From Ensifer sp. PDNC004 (GTDB lineage Bacteria; Pseudomonadota; Alphaproteobacteria; Rhizobiales; Rhizobiaceae), in assembly GCF_016919405.1 (NCBI RefSeq), contig NZ_CP070353.1, positions 1,178,001-1,242,000 on the forward strand: a stretch of 64,000 bases of DNA, given 5' to 3'. Below the pieces are notes generated by a model, which worked only from the letters and a program-made list of their open reading frames with translations, was not told the origin of the DNA and did no database searches. This document shows positions 14,947 through 19,805 of the stretch, in pieces. Made by a program: the position numbers and the translations under genes. The first letter of the stretch is position 1, and each line of letters begins with the position of its first letter.

Positions 14947-15528
14947 TCAATAGAGAGGCTCTTCATAGACCGGGCTGCCATTGACTGCGATCTCGCGGAT
15001 CTGGGCCTTTCCCTTGGCGTCTACGCGGATATTGACGGAGAGCGCCTCGGCGTTGCGCGCCTCCTCCAGCGTCCGCCCCTCGCCTTCCGGCACATAGAAG
15101 CGCTCGATCCCGTATTCCACACTGACGGACGAGAGCGCGGACGAAGGATAGTAGATAAAGGGCAGCGAGCGAAGGACGACGCTGTCGCCGGCGAGGCCAA
15201 GCGGCTGGAAGGACGCTTCGGTCGCCGCCCAGAAACCGTCGAGTTGCTTTTCCAGCCGAACGTAGATCTGCGCCTCTTCCGACTGCTTCGGCGTATCGCC
15301 CTTGAACAGTTCCGGCTGGAGCCTGGAAATGTCGTAGCTCAGGATCACGTAGTCACCCCGAAGCAAATCGCGGGGATCGACGGGCACGGTCTTCAACAGC
15401 ACGTCACGGCCGCTTCTGAGGATCGATGCCCTGCTCTCGATCATATAGCCAAGGGCCGCCGTCTGTACGCCCGCAACCAGCAGGGCCGCCAGCAATGGGT
15501 TCAGCCAACGGGTCTTTGCAGCGGTCAT
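14947..15528 (-). CDS. GDYXXLXY-domain membrane-anchored protein
   Basis: A 193-residue protein with one N-terminal transmembrane segment or uncleaved signal (WLNPLLAALLVAGVQTAALGYMI) and an extracytoplasmic part. It contains the family-naming motif GDYVILSY at about residues 58-65 (in DPRDLLRGDYVILSYDIS). The start codon overlaps the stop of the DUF2157 gene by 4 bp (ATGA). The pairing of GDYXXLXY proteins with DUF2157 membrane proteins recurs in bacteria, which suggests a complex, but its function is unknown to me. Confidence 0.88.
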   Translation of the reverse strand: MTAAKTRWLNPLLAALLVAGVQTAALGYMIESRASILRSGRDVLLKTVPVDPRDLLRGDYVILSYDISRLQPELFKGDTPKQSEEAQIYVRLEKQLDGFWAATEASFQPLGLAGDSVVLRSLPFIYYPSSALSSVSVEYGIERFYVPEGEGRTLEEARNAEALSVNIRVDAKGKAQIREIAVNGSPVYEEPLY

Positions 15529-16634
15529 TGTGGCGCCTCCGTCCCGCGCGCATTTGCCAAGTGCCCCTCGATGCGGATGACGAGCCAGGCGATGCCGGCA
15601 ACCACCAGCCCCGAAATCAGGAAGAAGCCCGAGGTGCCGAGCATCGAGCCAAGGGTCTCGAAGGCGAGGTAGAGAAGCTCGCCGGCAAAGGCGACGTAGC
15701 CGAGATAGCGCACGGCGCCGTTCTGCGCCCCGGCAAGCGCGATCCCGAGGAGGGCCACCAGCAGCGTGCCCGCCCCGGTCGCGACCTCCGATGTCACGCC
15801 GACGGCTTCAAATTGAAGAGCGGTAAAACCGAGCAAGGCGAGCGCGAAGGAATAGAAGGTGGGTGCCGAACCGGCATCGACCGCAAGCGCGCGAAGCGGC
15901 GAGCCGGGCAGCGTCGCCGCGAGAAAGGCCACGAGCCCGCACGCAGCGAGGCCACCGGCAAAGGCGAGCGATGCATTATCGAGATAAAGCCAGGCGAGCC
16001 ACGACAGGACGAGCAGATAGGCGAGATGACGAACCCTGTCGGCGGCCGTGAAACGCACCAGCAGCACGACGATCACGGCAAGCGTCGGAACGGACCACAT
16101 GCGCCAGTCCGGCGTCGCACTGAACCCATCGTCTTTCAGCACCGTTGCGAAATAGAACCAGGCGAGCCCGCCGGTAACCGCGGCCATGGCTGCGGAGCGA
16201 AATGCCACGGCAGAGAGCACGGCGCCAGCAAACCACAGCAGCGCGGCGTCGGCCGCATCGCCGGACAGATGATACATCTGCCCGATCAGGGCGATGCCAC
16301 CGCCAAAGGCAGCCGCCCCCAGAACGAGCGCGGCAGCGGCGAGCGTTGGGCGTCCGGTGCGGATCAGCCAGGCGGCGGCAAAGTGAAAGCCCCAGACCAA
16401 GGCGACGATGCCGGCCACGCGGGCAAGACGCGGCAGCGCCTCCCAGTTGGCGGCAACAAGCAGCAGGATTGAGGCGGACAACAGGAGTGCGGCGAGAATG
16501 AGCAGGACGCGCCCGGCCCGGAACGTCGACTCGCGACCGTCATATTCGGCGAGCATGGCACGCGCCGCATTCTCCTGCAGCAGCCCCTTGTCGACCCAAT
16601 GCTTGAAGTCTCGTTCGAGACGCGCGCGGTACAT
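15525..16634 (-). CDS. DUF2157 polytopic membrane protein
   Basis: A 369-residue integral membrane protein. A soluble N-terminus of about 40 residues (MYRARLERDFKHWVDKGLL) matches the DUF2157 pattern and is followed by roughly ten hydrophobic segments (for example VLLILAALLLSASILLLVAAN and LALVLGAAAFGGGIALIGQMY). The GxxxIGQMYHLSGD stretch is typical of the family. It is the first gene of a two-gene unit with the GDYXXLXY protein. Role unknown; no transport signature is visible. Confidence 0.88.
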   Translation of the reverse strand: MYRARLERDFKHWVDKGLLQENAARAMLAEYDGRESTFRAGRVLLILAALLLSASILLLVAANWEALPRLARVAGIVALVWGFHFAAAWLIRTGRPTLAAAALVLGAAAFGGGIALIGQMYHLSGDAADAALLWFAGAVLSAVAFRSAAMAAVTGGLAWFYFATVLKDDGFSATPDWRMWSVPTLAVIVVLLVRFTAADRVRHLAYLLVLSWLAWLYLDNASLAFAGGLAACGLVAFLAATLPGSPLRALAVDAGSAPTFYSFALALLGFTALQFEAVGVTSEVATGAGTLLVALLGIALAGAQNGAVRYLGYVAFAGELLYLAFETLGSMLGTSGFFLISGLVVAGIAWLVIRIEGHLANARGTEAPQ

Positions 16635-16794
16635 CCTGCCCCCAGCCTAGAATCCGATGCTTGAATTGGTTCCGTTCAGTCCCCAACTAACCACGTATCG
16701 GCGCGGAAACACAATCGCCCTGCGGCAGTTGCGCACCAAACCGATAGGGACGAATGAACGGCTTGCGCAATGCGCATATCTTCCATGCGGATAT

Positions 16795-16827
16795 TGCACT
16801 GCACAAATCGATTGAAAGGTCCTATAT
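16795..16827 (+). promoter_or_regulatory. Candidate promoter and TGCA-type box ahead of the first small-RNA module
   Basis: TGCACTGCACAAAT (16795-16808) lies upstream of CTATAT (16822-16827), which resembles a rhizobial -10 element. The stretch CTATATTCAAATCATC is nearly repeated as CTATCTTCAACTCATC at 17197-17212 ahead of the second module, and TTATATTCCAGAGCATC at 17493 precedes the first DUF1127 gene. TGCA-containing boxes also precede the other units (17139, 17454, 18018). The -35 element (CTGCAC at 17-nt spacing) is weak, so an activator may be needed. Confidence 0.45.
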
Positions 16828-16929
16828 TCAAATCATCAAAGGCGAACGAAGGCATGAAGCCAGACGGTCGCCAGCGGAAATGGCCAACCGCCTCAGTTTA
16901 CTGAGAAAGGCCCGGGTAAAACCGACGGA

Positions 16930-17055
16930 ATTCGGACGAGCGCACTCCTCCTCCCAGCGCTCTTCCGATCAGATTGGCAACACTCCTCCTCCCAGTTGCC
17001 AATCACTCCTAATGACGCTCGCTGGACCTCCTCCCCCAGCGGGCGTTATTCTTTT
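16930..17055 (+). ncRNA. Anti-Shine-Dalgarno 'cuckoo'/alpha-r14-type small RNA, copy 1
   Basis: Three consecutive hairpins each place a CU-rich anti-SD sequence in the loop. Hairpin 1 is GAGCGC/GCGCTC (16938-16962) with CCTCCTCCC at 16947-16955. Hairpin 2 is a perfect 9-bp ATTGGCAAC/GTTGCCAAT (16973-17003) with CCTCCTCCC at 16985-16993. Hairpin 3 is ACGCTCGCTGG/CCAGCGGGCGT (17015-17046) with CCTCCTCCC in the loop region and the run TATTCTTTT after it, an intrinsic terminator. This is the hallmark of the alphaproteobacterial family known as suhB/alpha-r14/NfeR1 or cuckoo RNAs, thought to base-pair with ribosome-binding sites. The 5' end is inferred from copy 2 and the usual length; a start near 16834, giving about 220 nt, is also possible. 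Confidence 0.85.
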
Positions 17056-17196
17056 CAGCCCTCCTCTCCACAAAGAAGCCTGCGTCTGCGCAGCTGCACA
17101 ATATTCGTGCATAATTTCGCTGCGCTCGCCCCACGCCATGCATTGGATGCATAGGTGCCATTCTGGAACAGCGCTACCCTTCCACCCGCCTGCGTA

Positions 17197-17202
17197 CTAT
17201 CT
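17197..17202 (+). promoter_or_regulatory. Candidate -10 element of small RNA copy 2
   Basis: CTATCT lies 8-10 nt before the presumed 5' end of copy 2, within CTATCTTCAACTCATC, which is almost identical to the stretch upstream of copy 1. A box TGCATTGGATGCATAG lies at 17139-17154, about 43-58 nt further upstream, a usual place for an activator site. Confidence 0.45.
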
Positions 17203-17208
17203 TCAACT

Positions 17209-17339
17209 CATCGATCGGGGCGGCGCACTCCTCCTCCCAGCGCCCCTCGATTTGGATCGGCGACACTCCTCCTCCCGGTTGCCGATCAGAACAAAGCGAC
17301 GCTCGCTGGATCTCCTCCCCCAGCGGGCGTTGTTTGTTT
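17209..17339 (+). ncRNA. Anti-Shine-Dalgarno 'cuckoo'/alpha-r14-type small RNA, copy 2
   Basis: Same three-hairpin plan as copy 1. Loop sequences CCTCCTCCC occur at 17230-17238 (stem GGGGCGGCGC/GCGCCCC with a bulge), at 17268-17276 (10-bp stem GATCGGCGAC/GTTGCCGATC with one G-U pair), and CTCCTCCC in the terminator loop (stem ACGCTCGCTGG/CCAGCGGGCGT, 17299-17330, then TGTTTGTTT). The terminator stem is identical to copy 1, while hairpins 1 and 2 have changed sequence on both arms, so pairing is kept by compensatory changes. That is strong internal evidence for a functional RNA. Predicted length is about 130 nt. Confidence 0.88.
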
Positions 17340-17568
17340 CTGGCCCCTCACATTTCGGGCAGCTTCCAGCCACGACAAGTCGATTGTGCCGCGCGTTTTA
17401 GACGCCTGCCGCGAACGCGCCATCGCACAGAGGCTTGCACGGCCTGCATGGGTGCGATGCAGCATTGTCTCTGTAACTTCTGCTCAAAACGATTATATTC
17501 CAGAGCATCAGATGACGGCCAGCAAGAGAGATTAAGCGCTGGCACACGACCCTAGAAAGGATAGGATC

Positions 17569-17712
17569 ATGAACCTCGCACGCTCTTTCAACAATTGGCG
17601 CAAGTATCGTCAGACCTGCAACGAACTCGGCCGCATGAGCGACCGCGAACTGTCTGACCTCGGCATCGGCCGTGGCGACATCCCGTACGTTGCTCGCCAG
17701 GCGATCAAGTAA
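17569..17712 (+). CDS. DUF1127 micro-protein, first copy
   Basis: A 47-residue protein, MNLARSFNNWRKYRQTCNEL followed by GRMSDRELSDLGIGRGDIPYVARQAIK. The pattern WRKYRxTxxELxxxSDRELxDLGIxRxDI is the complete DUF1127 domain. Short DUF1127 proteins of alphaproteobacteria are arginine-rich; one (CcaF1 of Rhodobacter) is reported to bind RNA and to be encoded next to CCUCC-motif small RNAs, and others are linked to phosphate or stress adaptation. AGGA lies just before the ATG. It sits 230 bp downstream of small RNA copy 2 with its own terminator, so it is probably a separate unit, with a TTATAT -10-like element at 17493-17498. Confidence 0.93.
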   Translation: MNLARSFNNWRKYRQTCNELGRMSDRELSDLGIGRGDIPYVARQAIK

Positions 17713-17749
17713 TTCAGGCTGCGCCTTACGCGCAACCGACCTCCAGTAG

Positions 17750-17785
17750 ACGCCCTCCGGTTCATTCCGGGGGGCGTTTTCTTTT
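17750..17785 (+). terminator. Intrinsic terminator of the first DUF1127 gene
   Basis: An 11-bp stem ACGCCCTCCGG/CCGGGGGGCGT (one G-U pair) with loop TTCATT is followed by TTTTCTTTT, 38 bp after the DUF1127 stop. Confidence 0.92.
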
Positions 17786-18017
17786 GGCGCCGCCAGTACG
17801 ATCCAGGTGACGCCTTCGCACTTGCGAGAGACACCGGATGCTCCGCCATCTGCCACTGCCCATGCAACGGAACCGGGCTTATGAGAGGTGCTTCGTCGTC
17901 TCTCGCCATCAGCTCGTAAATACGTTTGAAAACAGTCTCTTATCGGCGGACAATTAAGACTTTAATCAATCCTTAATCGATGCCGCCTTTTGAAGCGGTG
18001 CCCATCTATGCGGCGAT

Positions 18018-18070
18018 GCACTGCACAAATGCATAGCAGCTGCATTTTCTTTGCACTCCACCTTCTAATT
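18018..18070 (+). promoter_or_regulatory. Candidate regulatory box and promoter of the second DUF1127 gene
   Basis: TGCACTGCACAAATGCATAG at 18018-18037 repeats most of the box seen ahead of small RNA copy 1 (TGCACTGCACAAAT). A possible -10 (CTAATT, 18065-18070) lies 28 nt downstream. The interrupted TGCA-N4-TGCA dyad suits a LysR-type regulator. In Brucella the LysR protein VtlR is reported to activate DUF1127 genes and an sRNA, which makes its rhizobial homologue LsrB a reasonable guess. Confidence 0.4.
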
Positions 18071-18142
18071 AGACAAGCGTATAAGAACCTCAACGACGCA
18101 GACAGATGGCTGTCGCGACAACCTGATTTTGAGGAAAAGACC

Positions 18143-18286
18143 ATGAACCCGATTCGTATCGCAAAAAGCTGGATCAACTACCGCCGCACCGTCAGCGAGC
18201 TCGGCAACCTGTCGAACCACGCTCTCAATGACATCGGCATCACCCGCTACGACATCCGCAACATTGCGGCCCGCTCCTTCCGTTAA
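18143..18286 (+). CDS. DUF1127 micro-protein, second copy
   Basis: Another 47-residue DUF1127 protein ([20 protein letters not shown], then [20 protein letters not shown]). It keeps the family frame WxxYRxTxxEL...L.DIGI.RxDI but differs from the first copy in most other positions, so this is an old duplication. The frame is open further upstream, but GAGG at 18131-18134 with an 8-nt spacer and the family length fix the start at 18143. Terminator 28 bp downstream. Highly basic; RNA or protein binding is plausible but not shown by sequence. Confidence 0.93.
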
Positions 18287-18313
18287 TCGGAACGAACGAC
18301 CAGGACTTCCAAG

Positions 18314-18341
18314 ACGGCGCCTTCAGGGCGCCGTTTTCGTT
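18314..18341 (+). terminator. Intrinsic terminator of the second DUF1127 gene
   Basis: ACGGCGCC (18314-18321) and GGCGCCGT (18327-18334) form an 8-bp stem followed by TTTTCGTTT. It separates the micro-protein gene from trmFO. Confidence 0.9.
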
Positions 18342-18386: not shown

Positions 18387-19805
18387 ATGAGCAAAGACAC
18401 TTCTTCCCACTCCCCCATCCACGTCATCGGCGGCGGCCTTGCCGGATCGGAAGCCGCCTGGCAAATCGCCGAAGCCGGCGTACCGGTCATTCTGCATGAG
18501 ATGCGCGGCGTGCGCGGCACTGACGCCCACAAGACCGACGGCCTTGCCGAACTTGTCTGTTCCAACTCCTTCCGTTCGGATGATGCCACCAGCAACGCGG
18601 TCGGCGTTCTGCACGCGGAAATGCGCCTTGCCGGCTCGCTGATCATGAAATCGGCCGATGCCAACCAGGTGCCGGCCGGTGGTGCGCTCGCGGTCGATCG
18701 CGACGGCTTCTCCGACGCGGTCAGCGCGGCGATCGCTGCCCATCCGCTGATCACGGTGGTGCGCGAGGAAGTCACCGGCCTGCCGCCGAAAGATTGGGAT
18801 CTCACCGTCATCGCGACCGGTCCGCTGACCGCACCCGGCCTTGCCGAGGCGATCCGCGCGGAAACGGGCGCCGATGCGCTCGCCTTCTTCGACGCCATCG
18901 CACCGATCGTCTACACCGAGACCATCGACATGGACGTCTGCTGGTTTCAGTCGCGCTACGACAAGGTCGGCCCCGGCGGTACCGGCAAGGACTACATCAA
19001 CTGCCCGATGACCGAGGAGCAGTACAATGCCTTCGTCGATGCGTTGATCGCCGGCGACAAGACCGGCTTCAAGGAATGGGAAGGCACGCCCTATTTCGAC
19101 GGCTGCCTGCCGATCGAGGTGATGGCAGAACGCGGCCGCGAGACACTGCGCCACGGGCCGATGAAGCCGATGGGCCTCACCAATGCCCATAACCCCACGA
19201 TCAAGCCCTACGCCGTCGTACAGTTGCGCCAGGACAATGCGCTCGGCACGCTCTACAACATGGTCGGCTTCCAGACGAAGCTGAAATACGGCGCACAGGC
19301 CGAAGTCTTCCGCATGATCCCGGGCCTGGAGAATGCCGAATTCGCCCGTCTCGGCGGCCTGCACCGCAACACCTACATCAACTCGCCGACACTGCTCGAT
19401 GGAACGCTGACGCTGAAGTCGCGGTCGGGCCTGCGCTTTGCCGGACAGATCACCGGCTGCGAAGGCTATGTCGAAAGCGCGAGCATCGGCCTGCTCGCCG
19501 GCCGCTTCGCCGCCGCCGAGCGCAAGGGCGAGACTTTGGCCCCACCGCCGGCGACCACAGCCTTCGGCGCGCTGCTCAATCACATCACCGGTGGGCATAT
19601 CGTCTCCGACGATGAACCGGGCAAGCGCTCGTTCCAGCCGATGAACGTCAACTTCGGGCTGTTCCCGCCGCTCGACCCGGGCGCGATCGTCAAGCCGGAA
19701 GGCGTCAAGCGCTTCCGCGGCAAGGAGAAGGCGGTCGCCAAGAAGCAGGCGACGGCGTCGCGCGCACTCGCCGATTGCGCCGCCTGGCTCGGCAAGTCCG
19801 CCTGA
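18387..19805 (+). CDS. trmFO: TrmFO, folate-dependent tRNA (uracil-54) methyltransferase
   Basis: FAD and methylene-tetrahydrofolate-dependent enzyme making ribothymidine at position 54 of tRNA. The 472-residue protein starts with the dinucleotide motif [17 protein letters not shown], followed by [61 protein letters not shown] and HRNTYINSP, all diagnostic for TrmFO (formerly Gid). The ATG at 18387 is preferred over upstream in-frame codons because those overlap the second DUF1127 gene and its terminator. A terminator follows. Confidence 0.97.

Follow-up and report, generated by a model that had tools for sequence, protein, structure and literature searches.

The window analysed here is a 64,000-nt stretch of Ensifer sp. 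PDNC004 (Rhizobiaceae; contig NZ_CP070353.1 of assembly GCF_016919405.1, positions 1,178,001 to 1,242,000 of the forward strand). A 1.75-kb gap in it, from a DUF2157 gene to trmFO, holds four units on the + strand: two ar14 RNAs, of the kind also called cuckoo or NfeR1, whose hairpin loops carry an anti-Shine-Dalgarno (anti-SD) sequence, and two genes for DUF1127 micro-proteins. All four units lie on one strand, span 1.4 kb and carry predicted promoters with a box of the type bound by the regulator LsrB. The features are as follows, with the two border genes last; PMC numbers here and below refer to passages of the papers cited.

16764..16777, + strand: LsrB-type box of RNA module 1, TGCGCAATGCGCAT, 45 bp before the -10 box and one base off TGCA-N6-GCAT
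16794..16807, + strand: second conserved promoter element of module 1, TTGCACTGCACAAA, seen by eye here and in relatives; candidate second site of the same regulator
16823..16828, + strand: -10 box of module 1, TATATT; start estimated at about 16835
16927..17051, + strand: ar14 RNA copy 1 (cuckoo/NfeR1-type), three anti-SD hairpins, the last a presumed terminator; RF02344, 115.4 bits
17139..17152, + strand: LsrB-type box of RNA module 2, TGCATTGGATGCAT, 42 bp before the -10 box
17195..17200, + strand: -10 box of module 2, TACTAT; start estimated at about 17206
17210..17335, + strand: ar14 RNA copy 2, three anti-SD hairpins; RF02344, 102.4 bits
17436..17449, + strand: LsrB-type box of DUF1127 gene 1, TGCACGGCCTGCAT, 44 bp before the -10 box
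17494..17499, + strand: -10 box of DUF1127 gene 1, TATATT
17569..17712, + strand: DUF1127 micro-protein gene 1, 47 aa; PF06568, E 9e-17
17749..17778, + strand: terminator of DUF1127 gene 1, with a stem of the ar14 hairpin 3 kind but no anti-SD loop; probable relic
18022..18034, + strand: LsrB-type box of DUF1127 gene 2, TGCACAAATGCAT, with a spacer of 5, 45 bp before the -10 box
18080..18085, + strand: -10 box of DUF1127 gene 2, TATAAG
18143..18286, + strand: DUF1127 micro-protein gene 2, 47 aa; PF06568, E 1.8e-14
18311..18338, + strand: terminator hairpin of DUF1127 gene 2; z -4.0, 1 of 200 shuffles as good
15525-16634, minus strand: DUF2157 membrane-protein gene, divergent, upstream border of the gap
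18387..19805, + strand: trmFO, conserved flanking anchor gene outside the unit; NF003739, 681 bits against a cut-off of 262

Both RNA modules score well above the RF02344 gathering score of 58.8 bits and cover model positions 1-123 of 123. The original prediction, made from the letters alone, had named the ar14/NfeR1/cuckoo family and had suggested a scan with the suhB model RF00519; the family assignment stands, while the suhB model has no match at gathering score in the 64-kb window, where the Rfam matches are ar14 twice and one tRNA. Its description of the architecture also holds. The modules, said to be about 280 bp apart, are separated by 283 bp, each has three hairpins with loops reading (C)CTCCTCCC, and the terminator stem that they were said to share is identical in both (11 pairs in the Rfam model, 12 by our script with G-U). 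The predicted folding energy is -57.6 kcal/mol for copy 1 (z -8.8) and -63.2 for copy 2 (z -5.5), with 0 of 200 shuffles as good. All six anti-SD loops are unpaired in the predicted fold, as had been claimed, but the idea of one working unit exposing six loops may go too far, because only one of the six ar14 copies of Sinorhizobium meliloti is described as reliably detected on northern blots (PMC7143759).

The claim that the fold is under selection is borne out by covariation. Across 33 ar14 sequences 89.3% of cells are paired, cells with double changes number 225 compared with 81 in shuffles, 29 of the 31 stem pairs have changes on both sides, and 0 of 500 shuffles are as high on any of five measures. 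Sliding the structure along the same sequences brings pairing down to 33-50%. Hairpin 1 is the weakest, with 72% of cells paired, and hairpin 3 the strongest, with 100%. For comparison among relatives we used the best 80 of 591 trmFO relatives as anchors, which gives 81 sources with the window; judged by the neighbouring trmFO protein, the closest named relative in this set is Ensifer adhaerens Lc04, at 94% identity. A covariance model built from the 33 sequences finds 84 matches (E <=0.01) in the window and these 80 loci, with 93.6% of cells paired and 657 double changes compared with 204, in an alignment that is model-fitted and leans towards the model. The two sets of counts agree.

The leader of module 1 ahead of hairpin 1 is estimated at about 90 nt (16835-16926); by eye it looks rich in short stems in some relatives. 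A conserved leader peptide in a 16-codon ATG frame of this leader was considered and rejected, given that the leaders of two related loci (L015 and L016) have no ATG there. Elsewhere in the same genome, the ar14 RNA of locus L004 (C1:983433) seems by eye to carry an additional, fourth anti-SD hairpin upstream of the model start, together with a promoter of a related kind in which GCAT precedes TATATT by 45 bp.

The two 47-aa DUF1127 genes score 61 and 53.6 bits with PF06568 against a curated cut-off of 23.3, and downstream of each stands a hairpin that runs into a T-rich tail (z -6.3 for gene 1 and -4.0 for gene 2), so that genes and terminators are as originally predicted. A terminator pattern scan lists only that of gene 1. 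The estimated leaders of the two genes are about 50-65 nt long. Two further DUF1127 genes of the genome, on two other replicons (L007 and L008, C1:1237571 and C3:44863), encode identical 48-aa proteins. Their upstream stretches are near-identical and hold a box with one base off, TGCATTTCCCACAT, some 45 bp upstream of TATAAG or a similar sequence, and by eye the pair is a promoter-plus-gene duplication between replicons.

The predicted promoters link the four units. NfeR1 transcription in S. meliloti depends on LsrB, which binds the sequence TGCA-N6-GCAT located at about -72 to -57 relative to the start; mutating this box abolished LsrB binding (PMC10746234). The AbcR1 promoter is likewise bound and activated by LsrB (PMC8844928). 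Brucella VtlR activates AbcR2 and three DUF1127 genes (PMC12595884), and in Agrobacterium the abcR1 and atu1667 promoters are bound by VtlR; atu1667 is described there as a 'small hypothetical protein', with two of the VtlR-activated Brucella genes as its orthologues (PMC7486931). In the window, TGCA-N6-GCAT is exact before RNA module 2 and DUF1127 gene 1, one base off before RNA module 1, and has a spacer of 5 before DUF1127 gene 2. An RpoH1-type promoter for module 1 was tried and discarded: the sequence CCTATAT occurs there, but 16 nt ahead of it the hexamer reads CTGCAC.

The same boxes recur in the relatives. With genes numbered by order (DUF1, DUF2), the N6 box precedes DUF1 in 21 of 25 cases from the window and its relatives (shuffle mean 0.6), a low figure because the 'DUF1' entries of loci L027, L028 and L040 are probably DUF2-type by position. 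It precedes the first RNA in 12 of 20 and the second in 5 of 9 (shuffle mean 0.3 each; the L040 stretch labelled as second RNA runs into a DUF gene). The spacer bases are almost free, with 21 different spacers among 22 before DUF1, as in a protein-binding site. Before DUF2 the box takes its spacer-5 form, 44-45 bp ahead of TATA or TACA in 19 of 21. When -10-like hexamers are counted over gaps of 10-74, they peak at 44-45 for the first RNA (4/7), the second RNA (3/6) and DUF1 (17/32), and 14 of 30 fall there for DUF genes of other clades; DUF2 with a strict hexamer shows no peak at 44-45 over the same gaps (0/4).

Combining box, spacing and -10 gives a signature, TGC[A/G]-N5/6-GCAT at a spacing of 44 or 45 (41-46 in a looser version). 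Inside the clusters it has 73 sense matches over 65.5 kb, in 42 of the 81 sources, compared with a single one in the 2.13 Mb of strand-sequence elsewhere; with the looser spacing there are 77 matches in clusters and 6 elsewhere. In a second sample of 29 further loci from 29 genera the signature has 26 sense-strand matches, spread over 14 loci, and 2 on the opposite strand. Bare boxes are equally frequent on the two strands of this sample, at 46 each. This indicates that the specific thing is the box with its spacing and not the box alone.

A candidate for the regulator is found in the same genome, where trxB (TIGR01292, 398 bits against a cut-off of 343), a LysR-type gene of 302 aa (PF00126 and PF03466 matches) and two ar15/AbcR RNAs stand in a row. 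This neighbourhood resembles arrangements described for lsrB and vtlR (PMC12595884, PMC8844928), and on its neighbourhood only the LysR-type gene is putatively lsrB. A third ar15 (AbcR-type) RNA, the best-scoring of the three, lies on the smallest contig (C3:661730-661840).

The neighbourhood of RNAs and DUF1127 genes extends far beyond this genome. In a sample of 61 genomes, one per genus of the family, ar14 was matched in 60 and DUF1127 in 59. The figures that follow count only the matches listed, 150 for each family, and the chance expectation uses rounded genome sizes. Among the matches listed, 90 of 150 ar14 copies lie within 1 kb of a DUF1127 gene, compared with 0.2 expected, and 89 of these 90 are on the strand of that gene; of the 56 genomes that have an ar14 copy among these matches, 50 show the linkage. 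A genuine RNA-DUF1127 neighbourhood, as first proposed, is thus well founded, and the alternative that two common small elements stand together by chance is contradicted. Even though both families have several copies per genome, the linkage counts and the conserved layout in the genus described below leave such a coincidence a negligible probability.

The commonest order among the matches listed is DUF then RNA (29 clusters), with 27-444 bp between the two, often less than 50, and hence operon-like. RNA-RNA-DUF-DUF is found in five of the 61 genomes, the present one included, and others have RNA-DUF-DUF or longer RNA-first arrangements. Within the genus Ensifer, coordinates compared by eye show RNA-RNA-DUF-DUF in 16 of 16 searched genomes. 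The present genome as a whole has five ar14 matches, four of them above the gathering score, and nine DUF1127 matches, of which only the two of each in the window are clustered. The original prediction had called the layout different from the co-transcribed Rhodobacter case, and it does differ in order and in having a promoter signature per unit; it is not peculiar to this genome, given its presence throughout the genus genomes searched. Nor is the linkage itself new. Elements and association are already known, the latter under the label 'CIN1 locus', for which a 2015 paper is cited (PMC10253847), and the window holds just such a short DUF1127 gene adjoining anti-SD hairpin RNAs.

Beside trmFO the layouts form a series. 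Microvirga, Methylobacterium, Bradyrhizobium and others are the most distant relatives; 20 of their 28 loci have a DUF1127 gene and no firm RNA match. In Mesorhizobium, Phyllobacterium, Aurantimonas and Brucella-type genomes the order is DUF(-DUF)-RNA, with 4-57 bp from the end of the DUF domain to the firm RNA match, and Rhizobiaceae-type genomes have the RNA first. On the trmFO tree, RNA-first order takes two changes among loci with both parts, one of them on a cut contig (L055) that counts as RNA-first only because the contig ends there. Most RNA-first rows (20 of 22) fall in one 28-row part of the tree (support 81, not starred), and the RNA-first locus L040 stands outside it with an unsettled placement. 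Against all other states the RNA-first group takes seven changes, because some neighbours have lost parts. The trmFO tree is a quick one with a midpoint root, so a change from DUF-first to RNA-first is a direction that we infer.

Some layouts are intermediate. RNAs (R) lie on both sides of DUF genes (D) as R-D-R-D in L040 and G019, R-D-R-D-D in G024 and D-R-D-R in L061, and three loci of the Rhizobium kind (L019, L022 and L024) have, directly after DUF1, a terminator and a hairpin whose loop reads TCCTCCC, scored as weak ar14 matches (E 8e-5 to 7e-4). The stem type of ar14 hairpin 3 occurs three times in the window, at the two RNAs and at the DUF1 terminator. In the 80 loci there are 33 occurrences: 21 at ar14 hairpin 3, 11 after a DUF gene and 1 elsewhere. 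We read the DUF1 terminator stem as a probable relic of an RNA that once followed DUF1. Among 23 named DUF-first loci the N6 box precedes the DUF gene in 18, or 20 if a spacer of 5 is allowed, and the full signature is present in 12, which suggests that one box probably once served both parts.

Two single loci stand out beside trmFO. An Aurantimonas sp. (L052:5084-5890) has one DUF1127 gene and then six tandem ar14-like RNAs before trmFO, and a Bradyrhizobium metagenome-assembled genome (L091:5838-5945) has a DUF-RNA pair whose model match scores 55.7 bits and which falls outside the tree part rich in such pairs.

Drawing on what was computed here (family membership, fold, linkage, the promoter design common to the units, the trxB-LysR-AbcR neighbourhood and the layout series), we read the locus as of the CIN1 type. 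It would have come from a DUF1127-RNA operon that was split, in a Rhizobiaceae-type lineage, into four separately promoted units sharing the activator LsrB (VtlR in Brucella and Agrobacterium); we put the probability of this reading at roughly 70%. LsrB is a regulator of the LysR type that responds to redox state. It would bind TGC[A/G]-N5/6-GCAT some 54-70 bp ahead of each predicted start and would recruit sigma-70 polymerase to all four units. NfeR1 in S. meliloti silences mRNAs through pairing of its anti-SD sequence with ribosome-binding sites (PMC7143759), and by analogy the ar14 copies in the window would repress many mRNAs by loops that cover these sites. The micro-proteins would act in the same response, perhaps helping the ar14 RNAs, possibly through direct contact with them.

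Several observations weigh against this reading. A generic sigma-70 scan of the region finds one of the four unit promoters, that of module 1; missing the other three is expected if they are activator-dependent, yet it gives them no support. The exact N6 box stands before DUF2 in 0 of 21 cases from the window and its relatives, and a strict -10 hexamer at a spacing of 41-47 follows 0 of 18 DUF2 boxes counted. The signature was shaped on the same loci, orthologous loci are non-independent tests, and its specificity applies to the window, the relatives' loci and the 29-locus set. It is absent in 15 of the 29 loci of the second set; the loci that have it are 8 of the 10 with the RNA first, 5 of the 14 with DUF first and 1 of the 5 with an unlinked copy. 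Only about half of the named DUF-first loci have it in full. Of the unlinked ar14 copies in the same genome, that at L004 fits the promoter design poorly and those at L002 and L005 do not fit. Of the 20 named RNA-first loci, only 10 have the stem relic behind the first DUF gene. The LysR-type gene meets no named NCBIfam regulator cut-off among the best 25 of 55 rows. Three loci (L023, L025 and L037) have both DUF1127 genes and no ar14 RNAs beside trmFO, and short DUF1127 proteins of Agrobacterium act on the kinase PhoR (PMC12501420).

The last two points belong to the strongest alternative, a shared regulon and nothing more, in which RNAs and micro-proteins are both driven by LsrB and the DUF1127 proteins never touch the RNAs and target proteins such as PhoR. 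We hold this to be nearly an even bet. In PMC12501420 the pstS defect of an Agrobacterium triple mutant is complemented by CcaF1, by an S. meliloti homologue and by E. coli YjiS, and no RNA binding was found for Salmonella YjiS. DUF pairs also stand without the RNA in the three loci just named, and in the most distant trmFO relatives most loci have DUF and no firm RNA match. More than co-regulation is suggested by the same-strand linkage in most genomes with a listed ar14 copy, by the operon-like gaps of 4-57 bp, and by Rhodobacter CcaF1, which is described as an RNA-binding protein with a part in CcsR RNA maturation (PMC10253847). NfeR1, unlike AbcR1/2, is not an Hfq partner (PMC8844928), which leaves room for another helper. 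The micro-proteins may assist the RNAs or act on proteins such as PhoR, and both may be true. In the three loci without RNAs, one of Agrobacterium (L037) and two Rhizobiaceae-type (L023 and L025), the first DUF1127 gene has the box.

Whether both RNA modules work is a separate matter. Module 2 could be the NfeR1-like gene and module 1, with its leader of about 90 nt, a silent or weak backup: the box-to-start geometry of module 2 is near that of NfeR1 (-72 to -57; PMC10746234), its hairpins begin right at the estimated start, and the northern blots of S. meliloti cited above fit one working copy. Module 1 is nevertheless the stronger family match, its promoter box is conserved in 12 of the 20 loci that have a first RNA module, and all 16 genus genomes carry the two copies in tandem; we regard a single working RNA as possible but doubtful. 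A single long operon with leaky internal terminators and inert internal boxes would agree with four units on one strand within 1.4 kb and with the one generic sigma-70 promoter before module 1; we consider it very improbable, given that a strong hairpin ends each of the four units and that fixed-spacing signatures before the internal units are conserved in relatives. A bolder version of the split-operon reading is itself unlikely as a whole, namely that the DUF1127 proteins are dedicated Hfq-independent partners of the ar14 RNAs, that their ancestral operon with the RNA was split in the Rhizobiaceae lineage by copying one LsrB promoter before each piece, and that the DUF1 stem is the scar. If true, RNA and protein doses would be set separately by one redox signal.

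As far as our searches reach, the new elements are the promoter design shared by four separate units and the proposed history of a split operon. The titles, abstract openings and passages of the literature covered hold no statement of an LsrB box common to all units; the split layout may already be in print. The locus unites facts that have been reported separately, namely that LsrB drives NfeR1, that VtlR drives DUF1127 genes and that DUF1127 genes accompany anti-SD RNAs. With one promoter design in one locus, action of DUF1127 on RNA or on proteins becomes directly testable in a tractable symbiont, and the range of layouts beside trmFO suggests a way in which an operon of protein and RNA genes can come apart into units with promoters of their own.

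Compared with known systems, the RNAs share with ar14/NfeR1/cuckoo (RF02344) the three hairpins, the CCUCCUCCC loops, several copies per genome and an LsrB-type promoter box; they differ in standing as two tandem copies, the first with its estimated leader, and are predicted here from sequence. The Rhodobacter ccaF1-CcsR1-4 operon and the 'CIN1 locus' likewise have a short DUF1127 gene beside tandem anti-SD hairpin RNAs on one strand. In Rhodobacter, however, DUF1127 lies upstream and is co-transcribed under RpoHI/RpoHII, whereas in the window the RNAs come first, two DUF1127 genes follow, and each unit has a predicted promoter with an LsrB-type box and an end hairpin. We take the Rhodobacter RNA RS0680a to be CcsR1. 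RS0680a is described with two stem loops (PMC3927594), compared with three hairpins in the ar14 RNAs of the window. The LsrB/VtlR regulon (AbcR1/AbcR2, NfeR1 and DUF1127) has the same TGCA-N6-GCAT-type box and joins RNA and DUF1127 targets under one LysR-type regulator; the window packs boxed RNA and DUF1127 genes into 1.5 kb, whereas the Brucella targets lie apart, judged by the locus tags given in PMC12595884. S. meliloti duf1127-1, which is subject to tetracycline attenuation through a translated upstream open reading frame, is also a DUF1127 gene with its own promoter, but it has a 279-nt leader with a 29-aa upstream frame (PMC12218461), compared with the much shorter estimated leaders of the two genes in the window.

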